Below are positions 7,321 to 38,448 of a stretch of DNA of 45,483 nt, piece by piece. The stretch comes from Lachnospiraceae bacterium (lineage in GTDB: Bacteria > Bacillota > Clostridia > Lachnospirales > Lachnospiraceae): contig SVEA01000073.1 of assembly GCA_015057615.1 (NCBI GenBank), positions 1-45,483 of the forward strand, given 5' to 3'. The notes under the pieces are model-generated. The model ran no database searches. It saw only the letters and a program-made list of their open reading frames with translations, and had not been told where the DNA came from. The position numbers were made by a program, and so were the translations under genes. Position 1 is the stretch's first letter. Every line of letters starts with the position of its first letter.

Positions 7321-7364
7321 CAAAAATATAAAAAAATAAATTCCAAGCAGAAATGAGGAATGTT

Positions 7365-8432
7365 ATGAAGCCTATAAGAATACCCATCCCCGCAGCGGAT
7401 TTTAATCCCCCGGTTTACCATTGCCGCCGCGCCACAAAGCCTTTTCTTTTAAACGGAAGACTTGACAAGCCCTTTTGGGAGGATGCACCTTTCACCAGCG
7501 ATTTTTTGGACATTGAGGGGGAGCATATGCCCTGTCCGCGCTTTCTGGCCCGCGCCAAGATGCTCTGGGACGACGAGAATTTCTATTTTGGTGCCCAACT
7601 TGACGGTGATGAAATCTGGGGCTATGTCAGCGAACGGGACGCTGTCATTTTTCAGGACAATGATTTTGAGATCTTTATCGACCCGGATTCCGATACCCAG
7701 CAGTATTATGAATTTGAAATGAACGTTTTAAATACGATATGGGATTTATTCCTTCCCGTAGCATACCGGGATGGTGGCAAAGCCCTGAATGGCTATGATA
7801 TTAAGGGTCTGCGCACCGCCGTATATGTTGATGGTACCATTAACGACCCCTCCGCTTCCAACAAGAGCTGGTCGGTCGAGGTAGTGATCCCATTTGCCGC
7901 TCTCACAGAATGTCTGCCCCAGACATGGACTCCAAAAGAGGGCGAATATTACCGGGTCAATTTCTCCAGAGTGCAATGGAAAACCGATGTCATAGATGGT
8001 AAATACCAGAAACGAACCGATTCTTCCACCGAACAACCCCTTCCGGAAGATAACTGGGTATGGGCACCAACAGGGGTGATCAATATCCACTACCCTGAAT
8101 TATGGGGCTTCGTATTCTTTACCGGTACAGGAAAAGAATCCCCTGCATATACCATTCCGGAAGATGAATATCGGAAATGGGAATTAAGAAAGCTTTATTA
8201 TGCCCAGCAAATTTTCCTGGACTTGAATGGACATTATAGCAACCGTTTGGAGGAATTAATAAGTATTCTTGGGACATATGCTCCAAGTGACGCTAACCGG
8301 ACGGTAAAACCACTGCCTTACCGTATCGAGACAACCTCCCATACATTTGAGATTTCCTGTCCGTCTTCCGATAATAAGAAAAATATTCTGATTTATTCCA
8401 ACGGAAAGGTGGAAATAAAGGGACTGGTGTAA
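7365..8432 (+). CDS. Carbohydrate-binding family 9-like protein
   Basis: The protein of about 355 residues resembles the CBM9-like (DOMON-fold) proteins found with polysaccharide utilisation genes. The fold spans about residues 20-250 and includes DGRL-type and DENFYFGAQLDGDEIWG segments and a FEIFIDPDSDTQQYYEFE strand. There is no signal peptide, so it appears cytoplasmic, which is odd for a binding module. The ATG at 7365 is preferred over 7353 because GAGG lies 8 nt before it, whereas the upstream ATG has no ribosome binding site. It is divergent from the fucosidase operon, and a role in handling imported glycans is inference. No catalytic residues are recognised. Confidence 0.8.
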   Translation: MKPIRIPIPAADFNPPVYHCRRATKPFLLNGRLDKPFWEDAPFTSDFLDIEGEHMPCPRFLARAKMLWDDENFYFGAQLDGDEIWGYVSERDAVIFQDNDFEIFIDPDSDTQQYYEFEMNVLNTIWDLFLPVAYRDGGKALNGYDIKGLRTAVYVDGTINDPSASNKSWSVEVVIPFAALTECLPQTWTPKEGEYYRVNFSRVQWKTDVIDGKYQKRTDSSTEQPLPEDNWVWAPTGVINIHYPELWGFVFFTGTGKESPAYTIPEDEYRKWELRKLYYAQQIFLDLNGHYSNRLEELISILGTYAPSDANRTVKPLPYRIETTSHTFEISCPSSDNKKNILIYSNGKVEIKGLV

Positions 8433-8471
8433 GAGTGAAATGGACACGTTCACTTTGTTCACTTCTAATCA

Positions 8472-8619
8472 GGAAAGAGTTTCGCTTGCTAAACTCTAGC
8501 GCTGAGCGCGGCCAGCATCGCCGGCAAAATACAATACGTGCGAGTGCGTCATCCCAATGCGAACTATGTTCGCATGGAGCATTTTTAATTGAATAGGACG
8601 ACCCTTCCTATTCAATAAG
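8472..8619. repeat. Multi-hairpin intergenic repeat, copy C1
   Basis: About 148 bp, closely similar to 19172-19318; both contain GTGCGTCATCCCAATGCGAA followed by CTATGTTC. It folds as a chain of hairpins: GAGTTT/AAACTC, ATGCGAAC/GTTCGCAT, and GAATAGG/CCTATTC. It lies just after the CBM9-like gene and before lacI, filling most of the 8433-8764 gap. It has no coding capacity. Confidence 0.7.
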
Positions 8620-8764
8620 AAGGGTTGCTGCATTCCTAATTTTGCAGTAACCTCTCAGAGTTAAATAATTATTTGAAAATAATGGTATGAACTGGTATAA
8701 TAACAACAAATTAATAGATTTTAACTATATATTTCGCACAAAAGTGTGCAGATTGGGTGTAATT

Positions 8765-9796
8765 ATGAAAAAGCCTACGTTACAAGAAATTGCAAATTCT
8801 CTCGGCGTTTCCCGGACCACGGTCTGGAAGGTATTCAGTGGTCAGGAAGGCGTTTCCGAAGATCTTAGGAATAGAATTATTGCCAAAGCGCAAGAAATGA
8901 ATTATAAAATACCGGAAGGTATCCTCCCTTCTCAAACCTCCGCATCCGAGTCCCCTGTAAACATTGCCCTTGCCGTATGCCGCCCGGAGACCTCCGTCTT
9001 CTGGATGGATATCATTCATCAGATTGCCAAGGAGCTTTCCCGCCATAACGTTAATCTGGTCTATACCTACCTGCCTTCTTTCATCAGCGGCAATTACATA
9101 CTTCCTGCCTCCCTTACAAACGGCAATACCCACGGCATCATTATTATGAATGTATACAACGAACAACTTCTCCGTCTTCTGGCGGCGTGCCCTATCCCTA
9201 AAGTATTTTTTGATACCGCCACTGCCGTTTCGGCATCCGATTTGAATGGTGATTTAATTCTTACCGAAAACTATGCCAGTATGTCGAAAATTACGGAGCA
9301 TTTAATCAAAAAGGGCAGGAAATCTTTTGGTTTTATCGGTGATATCAATTACGCCAAATCAAATTGGGAACGTTATGACGGTTTTTCCAGAACCTTGCTT
9401 CAGTATGGCATGCCCGTTCATCCGGAGCTATGCCTGACAAGCTCCATTGGCATTGATACCTATAAGGAAGAGATTGAAGATTTTCTGGGCAGCCTTCCTT
9501 ATATGCCGGATGCTTTTGTCTGCGCCAACGACTATGTAGGCTGTATCCTGATGCAGCTACTATCAAAACGCGGAATTCGAATCCCTGAGGATGTCGCTCT
9601 CTCCGGTTTTGATGCGAACATGGAGAATCCTCTGGCAGAGAATCTGACCACGGTGCAGGTATTCAATCAGGATATCGGCTTTCGCCTGGCACTACAGATT
9701 CTCTACCGCATTCAACACCCGGATGTTCCATATGAAATCACCTATGTGGCCACCAGGATTATCTTCCGTAGCTCGACGGCTGATTTTGAAGCTTGA
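8765..9796 (+). CDS. LacI-family transcriptional regulator
   Basis: A DNA-binding repressor/activator of about 343 residues. The N-terminal helix-turn-helix TLQEIANSLGVSRTTVWKVF (about residues 5-24) is followed by a periplasmic-binding-protein-like effector domain (about 60-335) with typical SGFDANMENPLAENLTTV near the end. The ATG at 8765 is chosen because it begins MKKPTLQEIA, the canonical LacI start. An upstream in-frame ATG at 8687 would add 26 unlikely residues. A stem-loop with GCACA/TGTGC lies just upstream (see the hairpin-RBS motif). It probably regulates the adjacent fucose-glycan genes in response to a sugar (inference from position). Confidence 0.9.
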   Translation: MKKPTLQEIANSLGVSRTTVWKVFSGQEGVSEDLRNRIIAKAQEMNYKIPEGILPSQTSASESPVNIALAVCRPETSVFWMDIIHQIAKELSRHNVNLVYTYLPSFISGNYILPASLTNGNTHGIIIMNVYNEQLLRLLAACPIPKVFFDTATAVSASDLNGDLILTENYASMSKITEHLIKKGRKSFGFIGDINYAKSNWERYDGFSRTLLQYGMPVHPELCLTSSIGIDTYKEEIEDFLGSLPYMPDAFVCANDYVGCILMQLLSKRGIRIPEDVALSGFDANMENPLAENLTTVQVFNQDIGFRLALQILYRIQHPDVPYEITYVATRIIFRSSTADFEA

Positions 9797-9917
9797 AGCT
9801 TAACTGGAAGATACACTACAGGTCCCGGTTTCCGGAGATTCAAGGGGCAAGAGAGCGTTGCTTTGTCATAGCAAATATAAATAACGCAAAAAATACAACT
9901 AAAATGTAAATATAAAG

Positions 9918-9992
9918 ATAAGAGGGTCCGTGACCTTTCTTCGCACGCAGATCGAAAGACCGTGCATTACAGGAAAGTCAAGACCCTCTTAT
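9918..9992. terminator. Long three-tier hairpin after lacI
   Basis: ATAAGAGGGTC at 9918-9928 pairs perfectly with GACCCTCTTAT at 9982-9992. An inner pairing of GACCTTTC with GAAAGTC and a top hairpin GCACG/CGTGC sit inside. It may terminate lacI and, from the other strand, the peptidase operon, although the U-tract is weak. Parts of the top (GATCGAAAGAC, GTGCATTACAGGAA) recur at 26502-26555. The remainder of 9797-10120 shows nothing else. Confidence 0.5.
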
Positions 9993-10120
9993 ATTATGTA
10001 ATAATTCGTATTGCTTTACCATAGCTATCTCAGCTGTCCAAGTTCCTCTGTAAACGTTGATATGCTTTCATTGCATTGCATCATTCCCATTCGTTTTACA
10101 GCAACTCCTTGATTTCATTT

Positions 10121-11362
10121 CTACCGATCTCCAAAATAGACATCCAGTTTCTTCACAAATTCCTCTGGAACCTCTCTTTGAAAGGGCATAACCTCTGCCT
10201 GTGCCAGACGTTCGGCAATACACCCCAGCACGCAAGCACTCCTTTTTAAGGACCAGGGAGAAATGAAGTCGATCGTATCATAGCGTGTATGCATTCCAAA
10301 GCCGTCCCGGTTAAGCGTCATGGCAGGAATACCTTTCCATGCAAAGGTATTAGAATCGCTTCCCCATATCCCATTGATAAAAGAAACTCCCATCCCTTCC
10401 TCGTGAACCACATAAGAAAGCATCTGGCAGACAGCGGCATCCGCCGTAACACCGATTACGGTCCCGCCGATTAACTGCCCGGCAAGATCCACATTCATAT
10501 TAAACCGATGCCGTGGCAATTCCTCCTCATGCTCCCTAACATAAGCCTGACTTCCGCAAAGCCCTGTTTCCTCCGCACCAAACCAGATAAATTCCATGGT
10601 TCTCCGTGGTGGATTCTCTGTGAAATATTTAGCAACCTCCATGATTAAGGCAGCACCTGCCAGATTATCATATGCACCGGGACCCTGTGGAACCGAATCG
10701 TAGTGGGCACTTAGCGTTAGTATTTCCTCCGCCTTATCCGTCCCTTTGATCCTTGCCACGATATTTTGGGAGACACGAGTCACTTTCTTCTGCCGCAGGG
10801 TCAGCTTTACCCGAGAGGCTCCTTTTTCAACCAGCTCTACCGCATCCTTATAATGCAGATTCACTCCCTGAATAGGAGTTTTCTCCACGCTTCTAAGGGT
10901 ATATCCGGCAGGCTTTAAATCTTCTTCTGTATCGATCGGGGTGCCTGACACGGTCACAAATCCCACCGCCTGTGCGTTAACAAGCTTTTGATACATTTCT
11001 TTTCTTACCGGACCGTTTACCATAACGATCTTTCCCTTCGCATAGGAAAGGCTGATTTCATCTCCGTTCTCGATATAAAGAAACGGTGCCTCCACGCCTT
11101 CTCCCGGAGTATCCCCACATCCTTTATAGCCGGTCACACGGTATTCCTTCTCATATGGTTCGGTAACCACCAGGCATTCCTCCGTTACCTCATATGCAGA
11201 AAATTCAAATTCCTCCAAGCGTCCGGTAAGCCCCAGCTTCTGAAGGTCCTTCTGGATTTCCTCCGCTGCCCTTCGCTCTCCGGGAGTTCCCGCCTCACGG
11301 ATATAATGAAGCTTTTCTACAAATTCATACTGTCTTGATCCGCTGATTTTATTCCAGTCCAT
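10121..11362 (-). CDS. M28-family zinc aminopeptidase/carboxypeptidase-like protein with PA domain
   Basis: Metallopeptidase of about 413 residues. A PA-type insertion domain lies at about residues 85-195. The M28 metal site follows: His and Asp in SAHYDSV (about 220/222), the bridging Asp in GAYDNLAG (232), the catalytic and ligand Glu pair in GAEETG (264/265), Asp in NVDLAG (292) and His in GMHTRYD (358). All ligands are present, so it should be active. The start is the ATG at 11362, with GAGGAGG 6 nt upstream; two in-frame ATGs further upstream lack one. There is no signal peptide. It is 37 bp downstream of cutC and probably co-transcribed with it. The substrate is unknown. Confidence 0.88.
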   Translation of the reverse strand: MDWNKISGSRQYEFVEKLHYIREAGTPGERRAAEEIQKDLQKLGLTGRLEEFEFSAYEVTEECLVVTEPYEKEYRVTGYKGCGDTPGEGVEAPFLYIENGDEISLSYAKGKIVMVNGPVRKEMYQKLVNAQAVGFVTVSGTPIDTEEDLKPAGYTLRSVEKTPIQGVNLHYKDAVELVEKGASRVKLTLRQKKVTRVSQNIVARIKGTDKAEEILTLSAHYDSVPQGPGAYDNLAGAALIMEVAKYFTENPPRRTMEFIWFGAEETGLCGSQAYVREHEEELPRHRFNMNVDLAGQLIGGTVIGVTADAAVCQMLSYVVHEEGMGVSFINGIWGSDSNTFAWKGIPAMTLNRDGFGMHTRYDTIDFISPWSLKRSACVLGCIAERLAQAEVMPFQREVPEEFVKKLDVYFGDR

Positions 11363-11399
11363 TTCTGTCCTCCTCATAATTCGCAAATGATGTCTTGTT

Positions 11400-12146
11400 T
11401 TACATTTCCTCTAATGCTTTTCTTGCCTGCCGAATATTTTCCTCCCCGGTACGATAAATGGTATATTCACTGAGGGAGGGCAGCCCCATATTCACTTCCT
11501 TTTTACGGTAACGCATAGCGCTGTCCAAAGCTTCTTTTCCTGACATGTGATAGGCAGTCACACCGGAATCCGGATATACTCTGCGTATTGCATCGGCATT
11601 TACACCGCCCCCCGCCTGGATGCAGATTCGTCCCCCGCTCTTTTCCACCAGACATTTCAGAAGCGGGATCCCTTTTGTACAGGCATTTTTCTGCCCGGAG
11701 GTAAGAATCGTATCCATCCCCAAGCTTATCGCCTGTTCCATCGTCTCATAGGGATCCGTGCTCATATCAAATGCCCGGTGCAGCGTGACAGACATTCCTT
11801 CTGCCTCTTCCATCAGACCGGACATTGCCTTCATATCCAAAGTGCCCTCCGGATTCAGAATACCAATCACAACCCCTTCGGCTCCCAGTTCCCGGAACAT
11901 CCTAACTTCTTCCTTCATCACCAAATATTCATAAGCAGTATAACAGAAATCTCCAAAACGCGGACGGATTAATGCATGCATTCGGATTTGACTGTGTTTT
12001 CGGATCTCCTCAAACAGCTTGGGACTGGGCGTTGTTCCTCCGATCACGAGGTTTCCGCATAGTTCAATTCTTGTGGCACCGCCGCGCTCCCCTGCCAGAA
12101 CAGATTCCACCGAATCCGCACATACTTCCAATATAAAATCCTTCAT
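11400..12146 (-). CDS. cutC: CutC-family copper homeostasis protein
   Basis: TIM-barrel protein of the CutC family, 248 residues, the same length as E. coli CutC. It shows the family start FILEVCADSVESVLAGERGGATRIELC, then GGTTPS, RPRFGDFCY and LTSGQ motifs. The starting methionine at 12146 is preferred because GAGGAG lies just before it; an upstream in-frame ATG overlaps that site. The copper role in E. coli has been questioned, so the biochemical function is unsettled. It is the first gene of a pair with the M28 peptidase. Confidence 0.93.
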   Translation of the reverse strand: MKDFILEVCADSVESVLAGERGGATRIELCGNLVIGGTTPSPKLFEEIRKHSQIRMHALIRPRFGDFCYTAYEYLVMKEEVRMFRELGAEGVVIGILNPEGTLDMKAMSGLMEEAEGMSVTLHRAFDMSTDPYETMEQAISLGMDTILTSGQKNACTKGIPLLKCLVEKSGGRICIQAGGGVNADAIRRVYPDSGVTAYHMSGKEALDSAMRYRKKEVNMGLPSLSEYTIYRTGEENIRQARKALEEM

Positions 12147-12151
12147 ACTTC

Positions 12152-12178
12152 TCCTCATTTCTGCGCAGCTTTATGTAC
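12152..12178 (-). promoter_or_regulatory. Hairpin-RBS motif before cutC
   Basis: On the minus strand GTACATAAAGCTGCGCAG runs into AAATGAGGAG, whose GAGGAG is the cutC ribosome binding site. It matches units of the array at 36664-36823 and is one of the dispersed single copies. Confidence 0.45.
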
Positions 12179-12232
12179 GGCATAGAGTTTGCGGATGAAC
12201 GCGACAAACCCCTGCGAGTGAAAGCCGCTTTT

Positions 12233-12267
12233 AAAGCCGCTGCACAACTTAAGCCATGCAGCGGCTT
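12233..12267. terminator. GC-rich hairpin upstream of cutC
   Basis: AAGCCGCTGCA pairs with TGCAGCGGCTT around a 13-nt loop. The arms resemble the terminator after rpsR (17001-17056; both contain AGCCGCTGCACAACT), so it may be a dispersed terminator-type repeat. It has T-rich sequence on the plus-strand side. Confidence 0.5.
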
Positions 12268-12334
12268 CCATTTTTATTCTCTACCAAAAGTATGATTGAG
12301 GTCAAGCAAGCTTGGATCTCCTCATTCCGTTTGT

Positions 12335-12591
12335 ATTATATCATGAACTAAAAACATGTTCATGATCTTTGGCTCCGATCGCATATCGCAAGCGAGCTTA
12401 CATATGCTCACTACGCTGTTATTATATCATGAACTAAAAACTGTTCATGATCTTTGGCTCCGATCGCATATCGCAAGCGAGCTTACATATGCTCACTACG
12501 CTGTTATTATATCATGAACTAAAAACATGTTCATGATCTTTGGCTCCGATCGCATATTGCAAGCATGCTTGCATATGCTCACTACGCCGTT
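12335..12591. repeat. Tandem repeat, three units of 85-86 bp
   Basis: Units lie at 12335-12420, 12421-12505 and 12506-12591, nearly identical and abutting without spacers. Each contains TGAACTAAAAACATGTTCA (dyad) and a second palindrome around GCAAGC(G/A)(A/T)GCTT with flanking CATAT/ATATG. Unit 3 has the more perfect second palindrome. The array lies between cutC and the terminator of the second importer operon and codes for nothing recognisable. Confidence 0.85.
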
Positions 12592-12643
12592 ATTTATCAT
12601 ATTCAATTTTTCTTAACAATAAACGTTTCTCCCATAAAAACTA

Positions 12644-12682
12644 ATCCCACAAAAGCTGCTTAAAAAGCAGCTTTTGTGGGAT
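12644..12682 (-). terminator. Terminator of the second importer operon
   Basis: ATCCCACAAAAGCTGCTT pairs perfectly with AAGCAGCTTTTGTGGGAT around a 3-nt loop, and on the minus strand is followed by TAGTTTTTA. A textbook rho-independent terminator 11 bp after the lipoprotein stop codon. Confidence 0.85.
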
Positions 12683-12692
12683 CATATTATCT

Positions 12693-14345
12693 TTATTTAT
12701 TCTTTTCTTCAATAAAACTGTCTAATTGCTTATTTGCCTCTTTAACTACATTATCAATACCGTTGTCCTTTAGTTTCTGAATAAACTTCGGCAATGCATC
12801 ATCCGGATTTACGCTTCCTGTGTTAAGTGAAAGTGCATATTCCGCCGCAACATTCGCTAAAGCCCCCATTTGATCATTAACATCCGTTGAATCAAATGTC
12901 CATCCAAGAATAGGAATCTCACCGGCAGCACCATAATAAGCTTTATAATTATCCCAGAAGTCTCTTCCCTGATCTTCCAGTGGAGGTAGCTGGGTAATAT
13001 TACCCATACCGTTTGCCCATGGTTTATAGTCACTCCGTTTATCGGTGAATTTGACTTCGCCATCGTTAACTAATTCATAATGCTCCCCTTCGATACCATA
13101 ATCAAGCAGTGTAAATAAATACGGATCTGTATTTAATAAATCAAGGAACATCATAGCACGCTCCGGGTTTTTACATGTTGTAGAAATAGCCATCATAGCG
13201 CCTTGTGAAGATGTGGTATCAACATAAGCCGGTGTACAGGGAACCATTGCAACTTTAAAGCCACGTTCCTGTGTTGCCTGATCTTCATATCCAAGAGCAT
13301 AGCTCTGTGTACCAATGAGATATTTTCCGGTAAGCTGAGTGGCCTCACGTGCTGGAATTGCCTGGTCGGCATTTCCCATAGCGGGATCAATATATCCGGC
13401 TAAATAGTACTCTCTAGTCTTTTCTGTAAATTTCTTGTATTCCGGAGTTTCAAATTTACTTAAAATCTTGTTGCCGTAAGCGCCATCTGCTGCAGTATCC
13501 TTAGGGTTGATATAATAGGAAAGAATATTGTTGGATGATGCATCACCGGTAACCATGATCGAATTGGTAACCATTCTTTCAAGAACAGCGCCCTCGATTA
13601 AGAGTGGATAGAAGTCATCTCCCTCTCCTGCTTTTACCTTTGCAAAAATATCTCCAAAACCATAATAATCGGTATTTTTGATATCATCAAGGGTATAGCC
13701 GTATTTCTCCAGCAATGGTACGTTGACATCCCAGCAATTCTGCGTTGCGATATCTTTATAACCCGGTACCGCATAGGTACCAAGACCCTCCGCACCTTGC
13801 ACCACGGCTCCATTCGTCAGCACCTCAGGAAGCAGCGCCCATGTATCGGAAGCATATTTTTCAATCAGGTTGTTTTCCGGGTCATCCAGACGTACCCAAG
13901 ACCCCTTCTTTGCAAATTCATAGTACGCATTCGAAGTCCATGCGCTGGTGAAATAGATGTCTACATCGTCGCCGCCTAAGATTGAAAGTACAGCCTTATT
14001 CGTAGCAGTAGCGTCAAAGTCATCCCAAGATCCCCAGATTGGTTTCAGAGTAACATTCAGTTTCTCTTTCAGGTAGTCATTGGCTTTTGCTAGAACTGCG
14101 GTATCATCTGAGACATCACTGCCGCAAAGGAACCATGTTAGTGTTACAGGTTCAGAAATGTCAATTTCTGCTTTTGCATCATCCTTATCATCCGTTGCCG
14201 GTTCTGCATCGTCTTTGCTAGCCTCCGTTGTCGGTTTTGCGTTCTCTACATTTTTGTCAGTTTCCTTTTCTTTTGGAGAACAAGCAGTCAATAGCATTGT
14301 CAGCATTACGAGTGTAAGAAACATCGATAATACTTTTTTTTTCAT
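12693..14345 (-). CDS. Sugar ABC transporter substrate-binding lipoprotein with DUF3502-like C-terminus
   Basis: Extracellular binding protein of about 550 residues. A lipoprotein signal peptide ends in LLTAC (Cys at about 22), followed by a Lys/Asp/Glu-rich linker, a family-1 solute-binding domain from about residue 50, and a C-terminal stretch (about 415-548, ending KFIQKLKDNGID then a Lys-rich tail) that resembles the DUF3502 domain of LplA-like proteins. ATG at 14345 has AGGAGG 8 nt upstream; a TTG two codons earlier would overlap it less well. It follows its two permeases. The cargo is unknown; no glycosidase is in this operon. Confidence 0.9.
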   Translation of the reverse strand: MKKKVLSMFLTLVMLTMLLTACSPKEKETDKNVENAKPTTEASKDDAEPATDDKDDAKAEIDISEPVTLTWFLCGSDVSDDTAVLAKANDYLKEKLNVTLKPIWGSWDDFDATATNKAVLSILGGDDVDIYFTSAWTSNAYYEFAKKGSWVRLDDPENNLIEKYASDTWALLPEVLTNGAVVQGAEGLGTYAVPGYKDIATQNCWDVNVPLLEKYGYTLDDIKNTDYYGFGDIFAKVKAGEGDDFYPLLIEGAVLERMVTNSIMVTGDASSNNILSYYINPKDTAADGAYGNKILSKFETPEYKKFTEKTREYYLAGYIDPAMGNADQAIPAREATQLTGKYLIGTQSYALGYEDQATQERGFKVAMVPCTPAYVDTTSSQGAMMAISTTCKNPERAMMFLDLLNTDPYLFTLLDYGIEGEHYELVNDGEVKFTDKRSDYKPWANGMGNITQLPPLEDQGRDFWDNYKAYYGAAGEIPILGWTFDSTDVNDQMGALANVAAEYALSLNTGSVNPDDALPKFIQKLKDNGIDNVVKEANKQLDSFIEEKNK

Positions 14346-14406
14346 GAACAACTCCTCCTAATTAAATTATTTTATATGTAAGCAGCTGGCATATTACCAA
14401 CTGTTC

Positions 14407-19004: not shown

Positions 19005-19171
19005 GGGGTGACCTCCTTAATAAGCTCACATTACTCTAATTGTATCTGTTTTATTTCCGAAATTCAAGCACCAAACCAGGTAATATTTATAGCAGTCTTT
19101 GTGAAAAAACCACGAAATTTGAGATAAAAACCGAGTATGGTAAACAGAACTTCTGTTTGCATTTCATAAAC

Positions 19172-19318
19172 AAGAAAGAGTATCGCTTGCAAAACTCTAA
19201 CGCCGAGCACGGTCAGCATCGCTGGCAAAATATAATACGTGTGAGTGCGTCATCCCAATGCGAACTATGTTCACATGGAGCATTTTTTATTGAATAGGAT
19301 GAACTTTCCTATTTAATT
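19172..19318. repeat. Multi-hairpin intergenic repeat, copy C2
   Basis: Second copy of the repeat at 8472-8619, same orientation, with several substitutions that weaken some stems. It lies just beyond the ppa terminator, in the gap between ppa and the small membrane protein gene, and has no coding content. Confidence 0.7.
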
Positions 19319-19922: not shown

Positions 19923-20006
19923 TTTAATCTCCATGCCTTTCTTCGCAACCTGCAAACTTTGAGCCGCAGGCTCAAAGTTGCGTGTGAAAGATTTATCTTT
20001 CACGCT
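19923..20006 (-). promoter_or_regulatory. Two-hairpin leader of ppa (leader family, copy 1)
   Basis: On the minus strand GTGAAAGAT/ATCTTTCAC forms one perfect hairpin. CTTTGAGCC/GGCTCAAAG with loop TGC forms a second. These are followed by GAAGAAAGGCATGGAGATTAA directly before ATG. A homologous arrangement occurs at 38347-38448 and a more distant one at 42556-42657. Confidence 0.55.
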
Positions 20007-23953: not shown

Positions 23954-24138
23954 CTTATCCACCATTTCTGCGCTCGCTTGCGCTCTGAATTTGTGTTATA
24001 AGTACCCATGATAGAAATACAATGCTTCCCGTTTCTGGTAATAAAAGTTATTATTTTATAGTCATGTTATCATTACTGGTACAAAAGCTCAAGCATATTT
24101 TAAGCTAATTTTCTTCATCAAAAACAAGATTATTACCT

Positions 24139-26493: not shown

Positions 26494-26631
26494 GAATGAA
26501 GGGATCGAAAGACATCTTATTCTCTTTCAAACAGTGCATTACAGGAAGACTATAGATTCTCTTTGAATTTACATTGTTTTGTAGTAACCCCACATAGAGT
26601 TTGTATCTGCATGGCACTGCAAATTGAATTA

Positions 26632-26658
26632 CGCACAAAAGTTGTGAAGAAATGAGAT
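26632..26658 (+). promoter_or_regulatory. Hairpin-RBS motif between the two oxidoreductase genes
   Basis: CACAA/TTGTG stem-loop followed by AAGAAATGAGAT, about 40 bp before the second oxidoreductase. The upstream part of this 202-bp gap (26502-26555) shares GATCGAAAGAC and GTGCATTACAGGAA with the hairpin at 9918-9992. Confidence 0.4.
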
Positions 26659-26695: not shown

Positions 26696-27787
26696 ATGAA
26701 AGAAATACTGGGTTTTGGTATCATCGGCTGCGGTAACATTAGCGGCACCCATGCTGCTGCCATAAGTGAGCTTGCGGATGCAAGGTTAATATCCGTATGC
26801 GATATCCTGCCGGAGAAAGCGAAGAAGCTGGCGAATAAGTATAACTGCCTGTATGATACAAGTATTGAAAGCCTCCTAAATAGAGAGGACATTGATGTTA
26901 TCTGTGTATGTACTCCCAGCGGAATGCATGCTGATCACGGTATCCTTGCCGCCAAAGCAGGAAAGCATGTCATCGTAGAGAAACCCATCGAGGTAACCCT
27001 TGAGGCTGCGAATGCTTTGATTACTGCCTGCCGTCAGGAAGGTGTTGAATTAAGCGTAATCTCTCAACACCGTTTTGATGATGATATCGTAAAATTAAAG
27101 GAAGCCATCCGGGAAGGCAAGCTAGGACAGCTTAATTTCGGGGGCTCGCATACCAAGTGGTTTCGCAGCCAGAAATACTATGACAGCGGGGATTGGAGAG
27201 GCACCTGGGAACTTGACGGCGGCGGTGCCCTGATGAATCAATCCATCCACTATATCGACCTGCTTCAATATATTATGGGACCTGTGGAAGAGGTCTTTGC
27301 TTATTGTGCTACCAGAGCGCATACGAATATCGAGGTCGAGGATATCGGTATCGCAACGGTCCGATTCGCAAGCGGTGCAGTTGGAATCATCGAAGGCAAT
27401 ACGGCAGCCTTTCCCGGCTATTATGCAAGACTGGACATCTACGGCAGTGATGGCAGTGCTGTCATAATCAACGATAAGATACAGAATTGGAACTTAAAAT
27501 GCGAAGGCGTGACCGAGGCTGATTTCGGTAATACCCGAAAGGAAGATACCTATTCCAATTCCGGGGCGATTAAGGGCTGGGCATCCACACCGGGCGTATG
27601 GCACACTTCTCACTTAAGACAGATTGCAGATGTGATAGCGGCTGTCAAAAGCGGAGCATCCCCGAAGATTACCGGGGAAGAAGGTTTGAAGCCTTTGTCT
27701 ATCATACTTGCTATCTATGCATCTGCAAGGACCGGAAAACCGGTTACTTTGCATAATCCTTCGGAGAGCAGCCGACAATCCTCTTAA
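26696..27787 (+). CDS. Gfo/Idh/MocA-family NAD(P)-dependent oxidoreductase
   Basis: 363 residues. Rossmann motif GFGIIGCGNISGTH, conserved VEKPIEV, and catalytic-region GGGALMNQSIHYIDLLQY. It is clearly related to its neighbour at 25336 but diverged, so the two probably do successive or opposite oxidation steps. The ribosome binding site before ATG is weak (AAAGG, 14 nt away). Its last 44 bp overlap the 3' end of the convergent AraC gene. Confidence 0.92.
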   Translation: MKEILGFGIIGCGNISGTHAAAISELADARLISVCDILPEKAKKLANKYNCLYDTSIESLLNREDIDVICVCTPSGMHADHGILAAKAGKHVIVEKPIEVTLEAANALITACRQEGVELSVISQHRFDDDIVKLKEAIREGKLGQLNFGGSHTKWFRSQKYYDSGDWRGTWELDGGGALMNQSIHYIDLLQYIMGPVEEVFAYCATRAHTNIEVEDIGIATVRFASGAVGIIEGNTAAFPGYYARLDIYGSDGSAVIINDKIQNWNLKCEGVTEADFGNTRKEDTYSNSGAIKGWASTPGVWHTSHLRQIADVIAAVKSGASPKITGEEGLKPLSIILAIYASARTGKPVTLHNPSESSRQSS

Positions 27788-30127: not shown

Positions 30128-30385
30128 AAAAAGTCCGCTCCAAGCTTTATGCTTAGGGCGAACTTTAAATTTTACGTCCGTGGTACCACCTAAATTCAGT
30201 AAGAATATTACTACTCCTATCTGCTCTCTGCCAGCACGAGATTAATCTTTATGCTGCTTCCCTGATAACGGCGGAAACCCCGGTGTAATCTACTCGGAAT
30301 CCTTTCAATTAACGACTCAAAGGTGCCTTCTATAGTTTTGTTATGAAGATTCTCACCACCCATCTTCTCTCTGAAAATAACGCCA
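30128..30385 (-). promoter_or_regulatory. T-box leader of glyS (glycine specifier)
   Basis: On the minus strand the stem I region (AGAGAGAAGATGGGTGGTGA) leads to a GAAGGCACC specifier loop with the glycine codon GGC at 30325-30327. The T-box sequence GGTGGTACCACG is at about 30178-30190. A terminator hairpin follows (AAAGTTCGCCCTAAGC with GCTTGGAGCGGACTTT), ending in TTTTT at about 30128. Uncharged tRNA-Gly should stabilise the antiterminator and allow glyS expression. Confidence 0.92.
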
Positions 30386-30428
30386 ATATATACTATTCCT
30401 TCTCATAGCCTTTGCTGTATTTTTATAT

Positions 30429-32665: not shown

Positions 32666-32716
32666 GATTAGCCCGACAAAAGCCTTCTTAATAAATCATC
32701 TTCATCAATTTGCACA
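32666..32716. repeat. Remnant of family A element (A4)
   Basis: GATTAGCCCGACAAAAGCC and the following 30 bases match the left end of A2 almost exactly (both continue to CATCAATTTGCAC). The rest of the element is absent. It lies 16 bp from the stop of the MMPL gene. The remaining 32396-32665 sequence shows no gene. Confidence 0.75.
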
Positions 32717-32731
32717 ACACTTTCGTTTGAT

Positions 32732-34777
32732 TCACAATCTTCTTTTTAAAGTCGTTTCGCTGATTCCCCGGTCAAAAAGGAGCAGCATCGCCGGTAAGAA
32801 GCTGAGAACCATAATGAAGGAGAAAATGGTTCCTCTTCCAAGCAGTCGTCCGATGTCCGCTGCGGCTGAATTGGATGATGTTTTATATAAGGTAAAGCCT
32901 GCAATGGACAAGGTCGAGGCGGATACCAGGATGGATTTGAAGGTTTCTCCTAAGGACTTATGAATTGCTGCTTTCTTCGGCAGCTCTCTTCGGTTAACCA
33001 GATAATGATCGGTAAGCAAAATCGCATAGTCTACCGTTGCTCCCAATTGCACGGTACTTAACACCAGATATCCGATAAAATTGATCTCCGTTCCCATAAA
33101 ATATGGTATCGATAAGTTAAACCATATCCCCGCCTCAATAGTAATCAGTAAAATAAACGGCAGCGTAAGTGACTTGAAGGAAAACAAAAGAACCAAGAAA
33201 ATCGATATAATGGCAATCAGATTCACCAGAGTATTATCCTTTGCAACAACATTTTTCATGTCGTACAGATTCGTACTTTGCCCCAGGGAATAAACCGTAT
33301 CACCATAATAGGACTTTGCGATATTCTGTATTCTTTCTACCGTATCAAACGCTGCGGCTCCCTCCTCCGCTGTATCGGTATAGACGATAATTCGTGCATA
33401 ATTCTCCGAATAGAACTGGCCAACAATATCCTCCGTAAGGAACGAAGCAGGTATCGCAGTACCTACGGTATTGGCATAGGATATCACACTTGTAACATGG
33501 GGTATCCCGCTGATATCCCGGGTCAGATTCGCTTCCTTGGTAATGTCCCCGCGTGGAACCAGTAAAACCATTACGGTCGATTTGCCAAATTCCTTCTCAA
33601 TTTCAAGCCGGTCCTGCCCGCTTTTGTTGTTCCCGGCTGTAGCTGCATTTCCATACAGAAAGCCCGTTTTCCTCTGTCCCAAAAAGCCAGGTACGATCAG
33701 CAGAATAACCAGAAGAACAACCGGAATCGAGAGCTTTGACAAAACTTTATATATATTTGTAAAACCAGGCATAAACGGACGGTGCCGTGTCTTATCGATC
33801 AGCTTATAGACGGAAAGCGTCAGTGCCGGCATGAAAATCATTGTTGTGACAAAGCTCAATATAATTCCCTTTGCCAGATTAAGACCTAAGTCAGCTCCTA
33901 TGCCGAATTTCATAAATGCCAGGGCAATGAAGCCGAACAAGGTGGTCAATGCGCTTGCCGCCACGGTTACAATGGAAGACCGGATCGCATGATGCATCGC
34001 CTCATGAACGTCCGAATACTTCTCCCGGTTATCGGTAAAGCTATGCAGCAGAAAAATAGCATAGTCCAGAGAAACCGCCAGCTGTAGGATCGGACTGATC
34101 GAATTTGTCATAAAGGATATCTCGCCGAAGAAAATATTGGTTCCCAGGTTTATCAGTATTGCTACACCGATCGTCACAAGAAAGAGTAGAGGCTCGATCC
34201 AGGAGGTCGTTGACAAAATAAAAATCAGAATTACGGCGGGAACGAGAATCATCATTGCACCCGCTACTTCGGAAACTGTATTTTCCTGCATAGATGCCAA
34301 ATCCGGAGCTTCTCCCGCTAGGGAATTATCCTCTCCGATAAATTCCCGAATAGCTGCGCATGTCTTTTCTTCTGCTCCTTTTCGAATGGTAATTGAAAAT
34401 AGCGCATTTCCGTTTTTATAAAAACTTTCCACCGTATTCGGATCACTCATTTCCAGCGGCTGCTTTATATCGATCTGGTCATCCAGCCAGATGACCTGGG
34501 TTATTCCGTCGATTCTTGCCAGCTGGTACTTATACTCCAGCGCCTCTATAATGGATACATTTTTAATCATGACGTTCGCATTCGGCATCGGTTCTGCGAA
34601 TTCCTGATTCATGATTTTCAGTGCTTTGGTTGATTGCGATTCCTGCGGAAGATAATCCACCATATCGTAATTTTTCTTAACAAACGACTGAAGGACGGCA
34701 CTTACCAGAGCAGTAAGAATAAAAATGATTAGAATCATTCTTTTGTGTTTAATAATAAAATTAACTATTTTGTCCAT
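32732..34777 (-). CDS. MMPL-family (RND superfamily) transporter
   Basis: About 681 residues in two homologous halves, each with one helix, an extracellular loop domain and five helices. The MMPL signature in TM4 appears twice: SLDYAIFLLHSF (about 240) and GATVDYAILLTDHY (about 590), whose Asp-Tyr pair couples to the proton gradient in this family. ATG at 34777 has GAGGA upstream; the earlier ATG at 34789 overlaps that site. It is divergent from a TetR gene with shared promoter region, and its likely partner is the heptad-repeat protein downstream. Export of a lipid or drug is plausible; the substrate is unknown. Confidence 0.9.
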   Translation of the reverse strand: MDKIVNFIIKHKRMILIIFILTALVSAVLQSFVKKNYDMVDYLPQESQSTKALKIMNQEFAEPMPNANVMIKNVSIIEALEYKYQLARIDGITQVIWLDDQIDIKQPLEMSDPNTVESFYKNGNALFSITIRKGAEEKTCAAIREFIGEDNSLAGEAPDLASMQENTVSEVAGAMMILVPAVILIFILSTTSWIEPLLFLVTIGVAILINLGTNIFFGEISFMTNSISPILQLAVSLDYAIFLLHSFTDNREKYSDVHEAMHHAIRSSIVTVAASALTTLFGFIALAFMKFGIGADLGLNLAKGIILSFVTTMIFMPALTLSVYKLIDKTRHRPFMPGFTNIYKVLSKLSIPVVLLVILLIVPGFLGQRKTGFLYGNAATAGNNKSGQDRLEIEKEFGKSTVMVLLVPRGDITKEANLTRDISGIPHVTSVISYANTVGTAIPASFLTEDIVGQFYSENYARIIVYTDTAEEGAAAFDTVERIQNIAKSYYGDTVYSLGQSTNLYDMKNVVAKDNTLVNLIAIISIFLVLLFSFKSLTLPFILLITIEAGIWFNLSIPYFMGTEINFIGYLVLSTVQLGATVDYAILLTDHYLVNRRELPKKAAIHKSLGETFKSILVSASTLSIAGFTLYKTSSNSAAADIGRLLGRGTIFSFIMVLSFLPAMLLLFDRGISETTLKRRL

Positions 34778-34848
34778 AGCTTTCCTCATTTCTATATGGT
34801 TTCTTATTTACAATTTTTTATAAACCATTGAAAATTATACCTATTTGA

Positions 34849-34890
34849 ATTATAATAAACACACTGTAGTTTTACAACCAACACTGTTGG
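34849..34890. promoter_or_regulatory. Overlapping divergent promoters and operator between MMPL and TetR genes
   Basis: Minus strand: TTGTAA (34872-34877), 17 nt, TATAAT (34849-34854). Plus strand: TTGAAA (34828-34833), 17 nt, TATAAT (34851-34856). The two -10 boxes overlap. The dyad CCAACACTGTTGG (34878-34890) touches the minus-strand -35, and a half site CCAACACTAT is repeated at 34907-34916. This is the expected layout for TetR autorepression and repression of the exporter. Confidence 0.65.
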
Positions 34891-34969
34891 AGAAAAAGTC
34901 AGATATCCAACACTATTCTTTCAATGTGATGGAAATTCAGAAAAATTTAATATTTGGAAAGAAGGAGCT

Positions 34970-35521
34970 ATGAGCAATACAAAAACAGACCAGCGGGTCA
35001 AATTAACCATCCAAATTTTACAGAACGCTTTGATCAAATGTATGCTGGAAAATCATATTTCCAAAATATCCGTCAAGCGCATTTGTGAGATAGCGGGTAT
35101 CAACCGGAGCACCTTTTATTCCCATTTTCAGGATCAATATGACCTCTTAGATTATACCTGCAATGAAGTAATTGAAAATATCAAAAAGTACATGGATGAA
35201 TATCCCAATGAAATAAAACCGATTTCTCATTCGTCATTAACCCGGATTCTGGATTATGTCAAAGAGGATGCCGATCTTTTTAATGCTCTGCTCAGTGATA
35301 ATAGTGATCTTGATATTCAGAAGAAGATTATGAAAGAATTTATTACCTATCAACCGTATAACGGGCTTGACTTAAGGACAAAGGAGTACTTTTATGCCTA
35401 CGGGCAGGCAGGTTGTATCAGCATAATTCAAAAATGGCTGAAAGACGGCATGCCCGAGACAACAGCAAGAATGGCAGAAATTATATTACACGCTCTTGAT
35501 AAGGGAATTAACCGGTTATAA
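34970..35521 (+). CDS. TetR/AcrR-family transcriptional regulator
   Basis: 183 residues. The N-terminal helix-turn-helix SVKRICEIAGINRSTFYSHF (about 39-58) is preceded by the family's first helix. The C-terminal ligand domain contains FFYAYGQAG-like sequence and QKWLKDGMPET, as in the DhaS/TetR_C_8-like branch. AAGGAG precedes ATG. It faces away from the MMPL operon and probably represses it by binding CCAACACTGTTGG. Confidence 0.9.
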   Translation: MSNTKTDQRVKLTIQILQNALIKCMLENHISKISVKRICEIAGINRSTFYSHFQDQYDLLDYTCNEVIENIKKYMDEYPNEIKPISHSSLTRILDYVKEDADLFNALLSDNSDLDIQKKIMKEFITYQPYNGLDLRTKEYFYAYGQAGCISIIQKWLKDGMPETTARMAEIILHALDKGINRL

Positions 35522-35540
35522 TTATCTGTTTGTAATATAA

Positions 35541-35591
35541 AAGGATGTATTGTAACTCTAACCGATTATCGTTAGAATACAGTACATCCTT
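35541..35591 (+). terminator. Terminator of the TetR gene
   Basis: AAGGATGTA and TACATCCTT form the base of a long hairpin with CTCTAAC/GTTAGAA pairing above it, followed by a short T-rich tract. Confidence 0.65.
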
Positions 35592-35605
35592 CTACTGCTA
35601 CTACT

Positions 35606-35702
35606 GATAGGAGTGTCGTAAGTCATATAATAACTATAAACATCCGTATTTATGTGATCCTATTCCTATCAAAATCTTAAAATAACTTATAACACTCCTA
35701 TC
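35606..35702. repeat. Dispersed inverted-repeat element, copy B2 (97 bp, internally deleted)
   Basis: Ends GATAGGAGTGTCGTAAGTCAT and, inverted, ATAACTTATAACACTCCTATC. Both halves match the outer parts of B1 (24139-24387), but the centre is missing. Its right end lies 1 bp from the stop codon of the lipoprotein gene. Confidence 0.75.
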
Positions 35703-35703
35703 A

Positions 35704-36654
35704 CTATTGTTTAGTAAAAATATAGATCTCATTATCTTTTTGATTGGAAGCATAGATTTCTTCGTCTTCATTCATCGTTATATAGTAAAAATCCAATTTG
35801 GGATCATAAACATCCCCTTTATATAAGGTTTCTAAATATTCACCGTCCAGATTGAAAGTTTCTACCTGATGGGTAGCACAGCTGAATATGTATATGATAT
35901 CATCTCGAACAACTAAATCGGAAGGTCCATAATGCCCGCTATTTAGCTTCTCTATTTTACTGATTTTTTTATCTGTTATTTTCGCTAAGAAGGATTGTCC
36001 GGTATATATAGAATTTTTATCATAATCATAGGTTTGTGCATAATATATCTGATCGTTCTGCAAATCCCTCCCCATAATACCGTTTAAATCATTTCCAATT
36101 AACTTATTCGTTCCATTCTCCTCAATTATAAGAATCCTAGCTTTTTTGGATTTTAATGTCCGAAAGGAAAGATAGATATTTTTATCTGCATCAACCTCCA
36201 TATCTAATAAATCACAATCAAACTTATCTACCTGCTTGATCGGATATTCTTTTACATACTCAAAGTTCTTATTAAACACCTGAACTCTGGCATTTCCTTC
36301 TTCGGCTATATAGAAATTACCCTCCGGATCAGTTACGATGAGTACAGGAGATATAAATTCACATTCCCCGTTTCCCGTCTTTCCGATTTCCTTTAGAAAA
36401 GTGCCATTGCTATCGTATTGACCGATGGTATCAGAGCCTTTATTCACCACATAGAGCATGGAATTTGTATAAAGGATTCCGGCAGGATTATCTAAGTGAT
36501 TATTACCTTCTATGAAAACTTTTTTATCATACCGATTGGTAACATTCGTTCCGGTTTTGATTGTTTCTAAATTATCTTCTTTTAGGCTGCAAGAAGTCAG
36601 CGATAAAAGAAGAATACTTATTGTAATTATTTTCAGCCTTGCTAGATTATTCAT
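35704..36654 (-). CDS. Lipoprotein with NHL-like six-bladed beta-propeller
   Basis: About 316 residues. A lipoprotein signal peptide ends LLLSLTSC (Cys at about 22). Repeated blade sequences follow, such as NPAGILYTNSMLYVVNKGSD, FNKNFEYVKEY and NLDGEYLETLY, and suggest a 6-bladed propeller exposed on the cell surface. No catalytic residues are recognised, so binding is more likely than catalysis. ATG at 36654 has AAAGGAGG 7 nt upstream. It is preceded by a tandem array of five 32-bp hairpin-RBS units, the last of which supplies this ribosome binding site. Confidence 0.82.
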   Translation of the reverse strand: MNNLARLKIITISILLLSLTSCSLKEDNLETIKTGTNVTNRYDKKVFIEGNNHLDNPAGILYTNSMLYVVNKGSDTIGQYDSNGTFLKEIGKTGNGECEFISPVLIVTDPEGNFYIAEEGNARVQVFNKNFEYVKEYPIKQVDKFDCDLLDMEVDADKNIYLSFRTLKSKKARILIIEENGTNKLIGNDLNGIMGRDLQNDQIYYAQTYDYDKNSIYTGQSFLAKITDKKISKIEKLNSGHYGPSDLVVRDDIIYIFSCATHQVETFNLDGEYLETLYKGDVYDPKLDFYYITMNEDEEIYASNQKDNEIYIFTKQ

Positions 36655-36663
36655 TTTGTAACC

Positions 36664-36823
36664 TCCTTTCTGTGTGGTTTTTGGATTCTTTTCCTCATTT
36701 CTGAGCAACTTTTTGCATTCCTATTCCCATCTTCTGCACAACTTCTGCAATCCTGCCCCCATTTTCTGTACAACTTTTGTATTCCTGTCCTAATTTTTAG
36801 CATAGCTTTTTGCATTTTGTCCC
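36664..36823 (-). repeat. Five tandem 32-bp hairpin-RBS units upstream of the lipoprotein gene
   Basis: Full 32-bp units lie at 36792-36823, 36760-36791, 36728-36759 and 36696-36727, and a fifth, diverged one at about 36664-36695 ends in the gene's own AAAGGAGG. On the minus strand each reads roughly RGGAYAGGAATGC, then AAAAGTTGTGC, then AGAAATG. Within units short stems covary (TACAA/TTGTA, GCAA/TTGC). The units abut with no spacers, so this is not CRISPR. Beyond it, 36824-37125 shows no gene. Confidence 0.8.
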
Positions 36824-37125
36824 ACATATACCCTGTATTGTAATTATATTACACATATAAACAAATTAAGTCAACCCTGGTTCAGCTCCATCAAACCCGA
36901 ACCCCTTTCTCCCCTTATATAGTGGAGTTAGTGGAGGATGACGACTCAACAACTATATATTGGCTATCGTTTCTAATGAAAAAACAAATATAGTGTTTAG
37001 TTTCTCCTTTGGGTATAAAAAACACACTATTTCATCGTGATTTAGCGATAAAACAGTGTACCTTTACGTGGCGAAGTATTTAAGATTAAATCTTAAATTT
37101 CATTTAATGTCGTAAGTATAGATTT

Positions 37126-37151
37126 AAGGAGGGAGTTCATTTCCCTCCCTT
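37126..37151 (-). terminator. Hairpin after the GNAT gene
   Basis: AAGGAGGGA pairs with TCCCTCCCTT around an 8-nt loop. It lies about 38 bp beyond the acetyltransferase stop. The U-tract is weak. Confidence 0.5.
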
Positions 37152-37188
37152 ACTTCACAATTGTGAAAGTTTATTAACTAAGGTAGTC

Positions 37189-37716
37189 TCATTTGATGAG
37201 GTTAATCCAAAATATTTGTTGTTCTTTATCTTTAAAATAATTTTCGCAAGTTAATATCCCACCACAACTAATTGCTGTTCGGCTTGAAGCTATGTTATCT
37301 TTATCACAGGAAATCATCACCTTTGGTAATTTCATTTCTCTTGCTGTTTCTAAAGCAAGTAATAATTGTTGTTTACCATATCCCTTTTTTCGTTCTGTCG
37401 GGCGAATTCCATATCCAATATGACCACCATTCATTTCTAAATCCTCTGTGAGAAAATGTCTTAATTGAATAGAGCCTATAATTTTATTGTCAGATTTTCG
37501 TACTGAAAAAAATGTGCTTGCATGAACATTATCTCTTGACAACTTGTCTTTTTCAATAGAGAGAACAATATTAAGCCATTCGTTAAAATCATTATAGTAT
37601 GCTATACCACAGCTACCATTGATATGTGTTTCACCAAAATTGAAGTATTCCTGGCGATATTCCAAAATGCTTTTTTCTAATTCCTTTGATGGTTTAACTA
37701 ATATCAAAGTACCCAT
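37189..37716 (-). CDS. GNAT-family N-acetyltransferase
   Basis: About 175 residues. The core acetyl-CoA fold has FSVRKSDNKIIGSIQLRHF, then HIGYGIRPTERKKGYGKQQL, whose R-x-x-G-x-G-like pyrophosphate loop is RKKGYGK, and the ISCDKDNIASSRT segment typical of RimJ-like or YjaB-like GNATs. ATG at 37716 is used, with GGGG 8 nt upstream; a TTG two codons earlier is less likely. Single gene with its own terminator; substrate unknown. Confidence 0.88.
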   Translation of the reverse strand: MGTLILVKPSKELEKSILEYRQEYFNFGETHINGSCGIAYYNDFNEWLNIVLSIEKDKLSRDNVHASTFFSVRKSDNKIIGSIQLRHFLTEDLEMNGGHIGYGIRPTERKKGYGKQQLLLALETAREMKLPKVMISCDKDNIASSRTAISCGGILTCENYFKDKEQQIFWINLIK

Positions 37717-37802
37717 TTTCAATCCCCTTTACAAAAAGTAATCTACATCGTAATTATAAACAATAGCAAATTAAATGTATGGTAATATCATACATTATAT
37801 GA

Positions 37803-38054
37803 TTACTTAAAATCAATATATTTGAAGATTATATTCGCTTCCAGAAATACATGCAGAGCATAGCTACATACTAATGACCCTTTATTTTCTATGCTAATTT
37901 CTGTGAATGAGCATAGAAAATGTCCAGTATTGTCAATTGCGGTTGTAACCGTTACGAACTCAGGTCCCATAATACGAAGCTTAGATGGGCAGTATCCATA
38001 ACGGGAGGTAATGATTACCCCTACCACTTCCAAACGCTTTTGAAAGTCAGTCAT
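37803..38054 (-). CDS. Unrecognised 83-residue open frame
   Basis: The product starts MTDFQKRLEVVGVIITSRYGYC and ends ANIIFKYIDFK, with two internal Cys-containing beta-like stretches. No ribosome binding site precedes the ATG and no family is recognised. It fills most of the gap 37717-38318. The other notable item there is an inverted pair GTTCTGGT (38116-38123) and ACCAGAAC (38161-38168) around a TATAAT (38137-38142), a possible regulated plus-strand promoter for the ABC genes. Confidence 0.2.
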   Translation of the reverse strand: MTDFQKRLEVVGVIITSRYGYCPSKLRIMGPEFVTVTTAIDNTGHFLCSFTEISIENKGSLVCSYALHVFLEANIIFKYIDFK

Positions 38055-38318
38055 TGTAAGTGGTTAAGTTCATTTTCAAAAGATACTTTATGGTATAACC
38101 TCCTTTCGAATACGCGTTCTGGTGATATAAGCCTATTATAATACATCTCTGATAATTTCAACCAGAACGGGAACAAGTGTTTGCTAATATTTGTAGAAGT
38201 GCTTATAAATACTATGATTAATGTCATCATCCGATTTCACCACTATATAATTCTCCCCAGTAGGAATTGACATATTTAAACATATGGAATACAATTGGAA
38301 AAGTAATACTTATAGAAA

Positions 38319-38448
38319 GCGTAAAAACCGCACAGAAATGAGGATAGTGTGAAACATAAATCTTTCACCAAGCGAATTAATTCGCTTTGCAAATATTGTG
38401 CCTGCCGCGCAAAGTTTGCAGACTATGAAGAAAGGTACGGTTATTAAA
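38319..38448 (+). promoter_or_regulatory. Hairpin-RBS motif plus two-hairpin leader (leader family, copy 2)
   Basis: GCGTAAAAACCGC followed by ACAGAAATGAGGA (38319-38344) is a dispersed copy of the 32-bp unit. Right after it 38347-38448 repeats the ppa leader: GTGAAA/TTTCAC hairpin, then TTGTGC/GCGCAA around CTGCC, then GAAGAAAGG and ATTAAAATG. The hairpin 2 arms differ from the ppa copy but still pair. Confidence 0.5.

Follow-up and report, generated by a model that had tools for sequence, protein, structure and literature searches.

Small interspersed repeats at gene starts in Lachnospiraceae: a predicted pseudoknot ending in a Shine-Dalgarno-like box

Background

Several families of small interspersed repeat provide a setting for the element considered here, which was met in a 45,483 nt stretch of DNA from Lachnospiraceae bacterium (assembly GCA_015057615.1, contig SVEA01000073.1, positions 1 to 45,483; hereafter the window) as a repeated box, AGAAATGAGGA, and which in its long form appears to be a pseudoknot ending in that box. 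MIRU elements are described as short, apparently mobile repeats that have inserted at start codons while affecting the gene little (PMC12548453), and the pneumococcal BOX elements as modular, structured, many-copied repeats that can be co-transcribed as 5' leaders and likely affect the co-transcribed genes (PMC3049150). REP/BIME and ERIC are further small interspersed repeats reported to act when transcribed (PMC3049150).

The Lachnospiraceae element resembles MIRU in lying at start codons, but MIRU is described as coupling via its open reading frame (ORF) with a -4 nt spacing (PMC12548453), whereas here a Shine-Dalgarno (SD)-like box stands about 5 nt before the start, together with a pseudoknot. 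It resembles BOX, going by the descriptions, in its modular, structured, multi-copy build, but BOX is composed of boxA, boxB and boxC modules, belongs to another host and has no fixed SD-to-start position in the parts of the description covered (PMC3049150). By analogy, MIRU is the closest of these in way of life and BOX in build, and neither is described, in the literature covered, as combining a pseudoknot with an SD sequence of its own. The hosts of MIRU belong to another phylum. REP/BIME and ERIC share with the element the character of a small interspersed repeat, but to our knowledge they are not tied to start codons and carry no ribosome binding site (RBS). The preQ1 and SAM-V riboswitches offer a different likeness, a small pseudoknot controlling translation there and lying by an SD-like box here. 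In translational riboswitches of this type the SD sequence is usually part of the fold; here it stands just outside it, tens of copies precede unrelated genes, and the nine loci scanned have no Rfam match.

A search of the window against Rfam 15 at the gathering score returned a T-box and two tRNAs alone, and nine box loci, eight of them with a pseudoknot copy, gave four matches at E ≤ 5, none near gathering. No description was noticed among the papers listed by searches of open-licence literature, one of them by the sequence word GAAATGAGG, a scope outside which most subscription journals fall; the portions of PMC5171806 covered contain nothing on the element. Because it is MIRU- and BOX-like, has no Rfam match, and neither of those repeats is described as a pseudoknot joined to an SD sequence, the element may be regarded as an interspersed repeat at gene starts with a new build. 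The suggestion in the preliminary description, made from the sequence of the window, that it is of an undescribed kind agrees with this, as the scanned window and the nine loci yield no Rfam family for it at threshold.

Results and discussion

The box in the window and the genome

The window contains five exact copies of AGAAATGAGGA, where 0.05 would be expected; none of 100 shuffled sequences contained five. This abundance had been recognised in the preliminary description, although the repeat proves to be larger than described there. In the 4.07-Mb genome 52 copies are found, compared with 4 for the reversed control. The GAGG of the box is SD-like. Three of the five window boxes (7349, 12152 and 34783) stand directly before a start codon, which lies 6 nt after GAGG and opens a frame of at least 60 aa. 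The box at 36692 lies inside a tandem array of 32-nt units, and the ATG of the gene behind it is preceded by a later AGAAAGGAGG; that at 38334 is about 100 nt from the probable gene start (ATG ~38449), with a further hairpin module between. The earlier statement that the box is always near a gene start thus holds strictly for three of the five, the boxes at 36692 and 38334 not being at a start codon.

A longer 13-mer, GCAGAAATGAGGA, is present in 60 of 200 same-family genomes (one genome per genus by label, own genome included), with 24 copies in the own genome and at most 13 in any relative; its reversed control gave 9 matches, in 8 of the 200 genomes.

An H-type pseudoknot ahead of the box

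Reading 110-150 nt 5' of the boxes uncovered the long element, which in the best copies is a predicted H-type pseudoknot of about 66 nt with the box as its 3' end. From 5' to 3' it comprises an optional hairpin P0 (GTGAAAG..CTTTCAC), the 5' strand of stem S1 (GAGTTTGTG), TCT, the 5' strand of stem S2 (GCGCGGC or GCGCTGC), ATC, the 3' strand of S1 (CACAAACTC), some 13 nt that frequently close with AAAAA, the 3' strand of S2 (GCCGCGC or GCAGCGC) and the box (AGAAATGAGG followed by A or T), with ATG some 5 nt further on. A typical copy has an S1 of 9-11 bp, a 3-nt loop, an S2 of 7 bp and about 13 A-rich nucleotides. S2 pairs the loop of S1 with the strand touching the box (GCGCGGC/GCCGCGC, GCGCTGC/GCAGCGC) and, because S1 and S2 cross, the arrangement is that of an H-type pseudoknot. 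The short pairing stems named in the preliminary description are present (two are listed in Table 1), but the main conserved structure of the long copies is this pseudoknot, which had gone unnoticed.

A pairing scan of 103 box sites found scores of at least 14 at 20 sites, compared with 0.7 in shuffles, and a score of 9 was reached by 41 compared with 10.7, implying that the knot does not accompany every box. A 66-nt model, R1, holds S1 alone as pairs and does not model S2 as such. Run on the own genome it yields 152 matches at E ≤ 10, and at E ≤ 0.1 at least 145 copies (150 candidates scored). The 85 copies analysed below are what is left of 89 model matches once four that fall on an already counted site, through overlap of loci, are removed. 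They comprise the top 84 of the 152 and one lower-scoring copy standing in tandem beside another; their last 11 letters are AGAAATGAGGT in 24, AGAAATGAGGA in 21 and AGAAATGAGGG in 5. A P0 stem of at least 8 occurs in 37/85, against 14/84 at a control position, and one of at least 7 in 49 against 32, so P0 is treated as optional.

The last knot strand (GCGCA) might instead pair with TGCGC in the A-rich loop, and this competing hairpin was also considered. All five of its pairs are possible in 37/85 copies (best of nine offsets), and its trade-off with S2 is weak (Fisher p 0.03, rank correlation p 0.07, 83 copies; p 0.18 and 0.17 when each locus contributes a single copy), so no two-state switch is claimed.

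Other bodies end in the same box. Such types were seen by eye at about 4130-4200 and 9600-9700 of locus L346 and at about 1250-1500 of L019, one example being CCGAAAGAACCTG..CAGTTTCTTTCG followed by a TGCCRCC..GGCGGC hairpin and GAAATGAGG. The box seems, on this reading of the sequences, to be common to several unlike structured modules, some of them arrayed. Among tandem copies of the pseudoknot, for example in L183, the P0 of the next unit (GTGAAG) occupies the place of the start codon after GAGG.

Covariation of the crossing stems

Alignment A1 holds 23 sequences drawn from 25 candidate pseudoknots, the window copy (L009) and one with another loop length (L046) having been dropped. S1 and S2 cells in these selected sequences are paired in 94.3% of cases, compared with 27-50% when partners are slid, and exchanges include GC/AU at S1 pair 3-34 (nine sequences), UA/CG at pair 10-27 (four) and GC/UA at S2 pair 20-53 (eight). 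Against shuffled partners, the percentage paired, the number of cells changed on both sides (24 vs 10.0) and the covariation score (0.285 vs 0.211) each exceed all 500 shuffles, statistics that are biased in favour of pairing because the rows had been chosen for it. For that reason two further, less biased tests of S2 were made. Across 83 of the 85 own-genome copies, two without a readable box being left out, the S2 3' strand matches its own loop at 5.90 of 7 positions and swapped loops at 5.68 (sd 0.05), a difference reached by none of 200 shuffles. In named contigs, a pattern with one S2 base left free found 79 sites, 40 of them lacking a readable loop partner; the variable pair is matched at 38 of the 39 readable sites (Fisher p 1e-5), A in the 3' strand facing loop T in 33/34 and C facing G in 5/5, with the qualification that some sites come from the same genomes and are not fully independent. 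Together these comparisons support covariation of the stems, as had been proposed earlier.

Position at gene starts and downstream genes

In 63/85 copies the start codon of a frame of 60 aa or more follows at a distance of 2-10 nt, and in 42/85 it stands at exactly 5 nt, counted from the base after GAGG, which is the commonest spacing. On the antisense strand the figure is 4/85, and at random points in the same loci 160/1700. Some of the 22 copies without a nearby start are inner units of tandem arrays. The 200 nt upstream of 39/85 copies include the end of an open stretch of 80 codons or more on the same strand; the element thus seems to occupy intercistronic gaps as well as leaders. Three copies (L126, L160 and L184) share about 200 nt around the pseudoknot at roughly 84% identity, and none of them has an ORF beginning within 10 nt; they may be part of a longer repeat.

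The proteins encoded behind ten copies, chosen by eye from the 85 loci and not at random, all fall into unrelated Pfam families: a phosphoribosyltransferase, a WG-repeat protein, an ABC ATPase, ThiI, a class II tRNA synthetase resembling threonyl-tRNA synthetase, ribosomal protein L9, orotidine monophosphate decarboxylase, endonuclease III, an amino-acid kinase and S-adenosylmethionine synthetase. The concentration of model copies before starts and the covariation reported above, the two points on which the preliminary description could have failed, both come out in its favour; its dispersed repeat with an RBS-like box is further borne out by the copy numbers and the comparison with congeners given below.

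Alternatively, the element could be the leader of a true regulon, either a riboswitch or a protein-binding site, with the knot responding to some global signal and governing access to the RBS. The covarying helices would be consistent with this, and H-type pseudoknots are known at translational riboswitches (PMC11625349, PMC6061858). This explanation is nevertheless improbable. No shared pathway or ligand is apparent among the ten chosen genes, making a ligand-specific regulon unlikely; copy number ranges from 0 to 109 among 33 congeners; orthologous genes without the element occur; and anti-SD pairing by the 3' strand of S1, a candidate switch that was rejected, is predicted at -3.75 kcal/mol, not beyond the -3.66 of shuffles, with -4.00 for swapped copies.

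Distribution among genomes

Tandem copies 93-96 nt apart occur at three places in the own genome (C214:13234/13327/13420, C90:25012/25106/25200 and C74:2958/3054), and two further tandem places have spacings of 102 and 125 nt. Within the genus, 27 of 34 genomes have a match to R1, the own genome included: 145 copies in the own genome, 109 in G206, then 21, 17, 13 and 11, with 0-6 in the rest, so that the 32 congeners other than G206 range from 0 to 21. Across the family 32/200 genomes match at E ≤ 0.001 (31/199 in other genera), and in four of these relatives 24-26 of the 26 scored candidates match. A sample of the phylum gave matches in 3/298 other genomes, all marginal (E roughly 2e-4 to 6e-4), while none came from the few members of the same family within that sample. 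The family and phylum counts are lower bounds, as 26 and 17 candidates per genome were scored under stricter filters; one genome was taken per species, and E-values are rough. The pattern scan of named contigs, which may not include the own genome, returned at least 80 loci, mostly from Lachnospiraceae or other Clostridia, with a few labelled 'bacterium', 'Bacillota' or Ruminococcaceae. As strong matches in the family contrast with three marginal ones in the phylum, the element appears, as far as sampled, to be confined to Lachnospiraceae and amplified in some lineages, two or more species of a single genus having over 100 copies each.

These searches also bear on the simplest alternative, that the repeat is an ordinary strong RBS consensus accompanied by chance hairpins. 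GAGG is an SD sequence, some sites such as 7349 consist of the box only, and for single sites of this sort the explanation may hold. As a general account it is very hard to sustain: chance and a plain SD consensus are rejected for the long copies by the genome count of 52 against 4, by a 66-nt model that is strong in the family and marginal in three of 298 other genomes, and by the matched S2 pair across named contigs.

Presence and absence at orthologous sites

Ten element sites lie in three own stretches (L346-L348), of which eight were compared with related genomes and two left out. Six of the eight clearly lack the knot in a congener, a presence/absence pattern of the kind expected of a miniature inverted-repeat transposable element (MITE). 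In five of these the congener has a plain SD-like stretch and no pseudoknot before the same gene start (for example, AGAAAGGAGTTTATCATG where the own genome has GCCGCGTAGAAATGAGGTTAATCATG; at site 4, G217 has the box-like AGAAATGGAG), and at the sixth, G206 has the box and a short hairpin with no pseudoknot. The eighth site is common to the own genome and G206. Conservation outside the model is weak, at about -10 to +3. The copy-number pattern favours gain, suggesting that copies were acquired here rather than lost in the congeners, with site-by-site loss a possible exception. A repeat at L346:11197-11400 has many copies in G202, G204, G206 and G222.

Patchy copy number in congeners, tandem units and sites absent from congeners would also fit a mobile repeat acting at the level of DNA, MITE- or REP-like. 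A transposase supplied in trans would then recognise its palindromes in single-stranded DNA, while the RBS would merely be carried along and folding of the RNA would play no part; a related module that by eye is inverted in L066 points the same way. The strong orientation and the start-codon distance of the copies speak against it, and a covarying crossing helix at a fixed spacing from the box fits RNA better, although such a knot could form in single-stranded DNA too. It is a possibility to be taken seriously, if a doubtful one.

A putative initiation module

The account that we consider probable, judging from these sequence comparisons, is that the repeats are small interspersed elements of Lachnospiraceae at gene starts, which bring their own RBS, whose insertion is tolerated, and which have spread in some lineages. 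The element would occupy intercistronic gaps and leaders, and its 3' end would coincide with the start of translation. Once transcribed, a typical copy would form the H-type pseudoknot, whose last strand touches AGAAATGAGG, of which GAGG would be the SD sequence. New copies would arise beside existing genes, and units could stand in tandem. Because the built-in RBS would take over translation initiation, insertion would be tolerated and copies could spread.

We infer that the box is a working RBS and that the knot acts in the RNA, where it would occupy strands otherwise able to pair with the start region and so keep the SD open; it might in addition protect the cistron from 5' exonuclease at its 5' end or stop upstream ribosomes. 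Predicted openness of the SD, compared with matched shuffle controls, lends modest support to the first of these roles: across 61 elements with the knot strands blocked it is 0.54, whereas shuffles blocked in the same way give 0.38 (p 1e-5). A stronger and distinctly less certain version is a self-spreading initiation cassette, in which a mobile pseudoknot beside an SD sequence frees the gene from its old leader, holds the RBS open and blocks 5' decay or upstream ribosomes.

Several observations weigh against this account. The model includes the box and so favours RBS-like sites. In A1, alignment pairs changed on both sides number 6 against 4.1 (55/500 shuffles as high) and further pair types 19 against 17.9 (151/500). 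S2 has four or fewer of its seven pairs in 15/85 copies, so some sites do without the full knot. Left unblocked, predicted SD openness gains only slightly (0.43 vs 0.37 in shuffles, p 0.03). At the seventh compared site, an array in the own genome, G206 has the box without the array but also 31 N, leaving absence unclear. Neither an exact insertion boundary nor a target duplication was found at the compared sites, whose empty counterparts are too diverged for exact junctions, and in many cases the congener lacks a longer piece of DNA than the element itself. Single sites hinted that copies land immediately 3' of a pre-existing SD, but this does not stand out in the count (5/20 vs 12/60) and was set aside.

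What is joined here is a covarying RNA pseudoknot and a ready-made RBS-like box, found also before genes as basic as those for ribosomal protein L9 and S-adenosylmethionine synthetase. If the cassette exists, a single initiation module would serve dozens of unrelated genes within one genome, and if the knot affects initiation or decay, insertion would rewire the expression of many genes at once. Patchy copy number and empty orthologous sites provide natural pairs with and without the element.

Copies and related features in the window

R1 has two matches in the window (Table 1). That before cutC, whose frame from 12146 is CutC (PF03932), is the sole strong copy; in the degenerate one S1 is partly kept, S2 is not readable and a local stem CACAA/TTGTG is present. 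A hairpin seen by eye, TGGTTT/AAACCA with a 19-nt loop, stands 5' of the MMPL box, and each 32-nt mini-unit of the array consists of a local hairpin and a box variant, exact in one unit. Genes behind the boxes and related hairpins encode CutC, MMPL, a CBM9-like protein, a Gfo/Idh/MocA oxidoreductase, a rhamnosidase and an FtsX-like permease.

Table 1. Positions of the element, its box and related hairpins in the window
Feature	Position	Strand	Remarks
Pseudoknot element before cutC	12152..12213	-	R1 match, E 4e-10, 48.2 bits; ends in box
Helices of the cutC element	S1 ~12204-12212 with 12184-12192; S2 12199-12202 with 12163-12166	-	By eye; S2 cut to ~4 bp
Box AGAAATGAGGA before cutC	12152..12162	-	SD-like GAGG; cutC ATG 5 nt further (12146)
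Degenerate copy	26595..26657	+	R1 match, E 1.5e-5; ~38 nt before oxidoreductase ATG at 26696
Box alone, RBS-like, before CBM9-like gene	7349..7359	+	ATG 6 nt after GAGG; no model match
Box before MMPL gene	34783..34827	-	Start 6 nt after GAGG; no model match
Tandem array before lipoprotein-like gene	36679..36797	-	~3.7 copies of 32-nt mini-unit
Box, then P0-type hairpin GTGAAAC..CTTTCAC	38334..38368	+	Hairpin 38349-38368; further hairpin module before permease-side ORFs
Putative related module (assigned by eye)	19944..20003	-	P0 hairpin GTGAAAGATAAATCTTTCAC (19984-20003) and long hairpin CGCAAC..GTTGCG, then AAGAAAGG
Mini-hairpin GCACAAAAGTGTGC before lacI-type gene	8736..8749	+	Box not conserved; gene named in the preliminary description
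Mini-hairpin GCGCAAGCGAGCGC (GCGC..GCGC), then AGAAATG, before rhamnosidase gene	23963..23983	-	Rhamnosidase domains found
Exact boxes AGAAATGAGGA	7349-7359; 12152-12162; 34783-34793; 36692-36702; 38334-38344	+; -; -; -; +	

Other repeats and structures share the window. An 85-bp tandem unit in 3.1 copies, with 95% matches, lies just upstream of the cutC element (12334-12600). Another dispersed repeat, some 150 nt long and distinct from the element, occurs at 8466-8616 and 19167-19317 with 88.7% identity and has matches in several other loci of the own genome. The T-box leader (RF00230) is found at 30151-30415 on the reverse strand, with a score of 109.8 bits.

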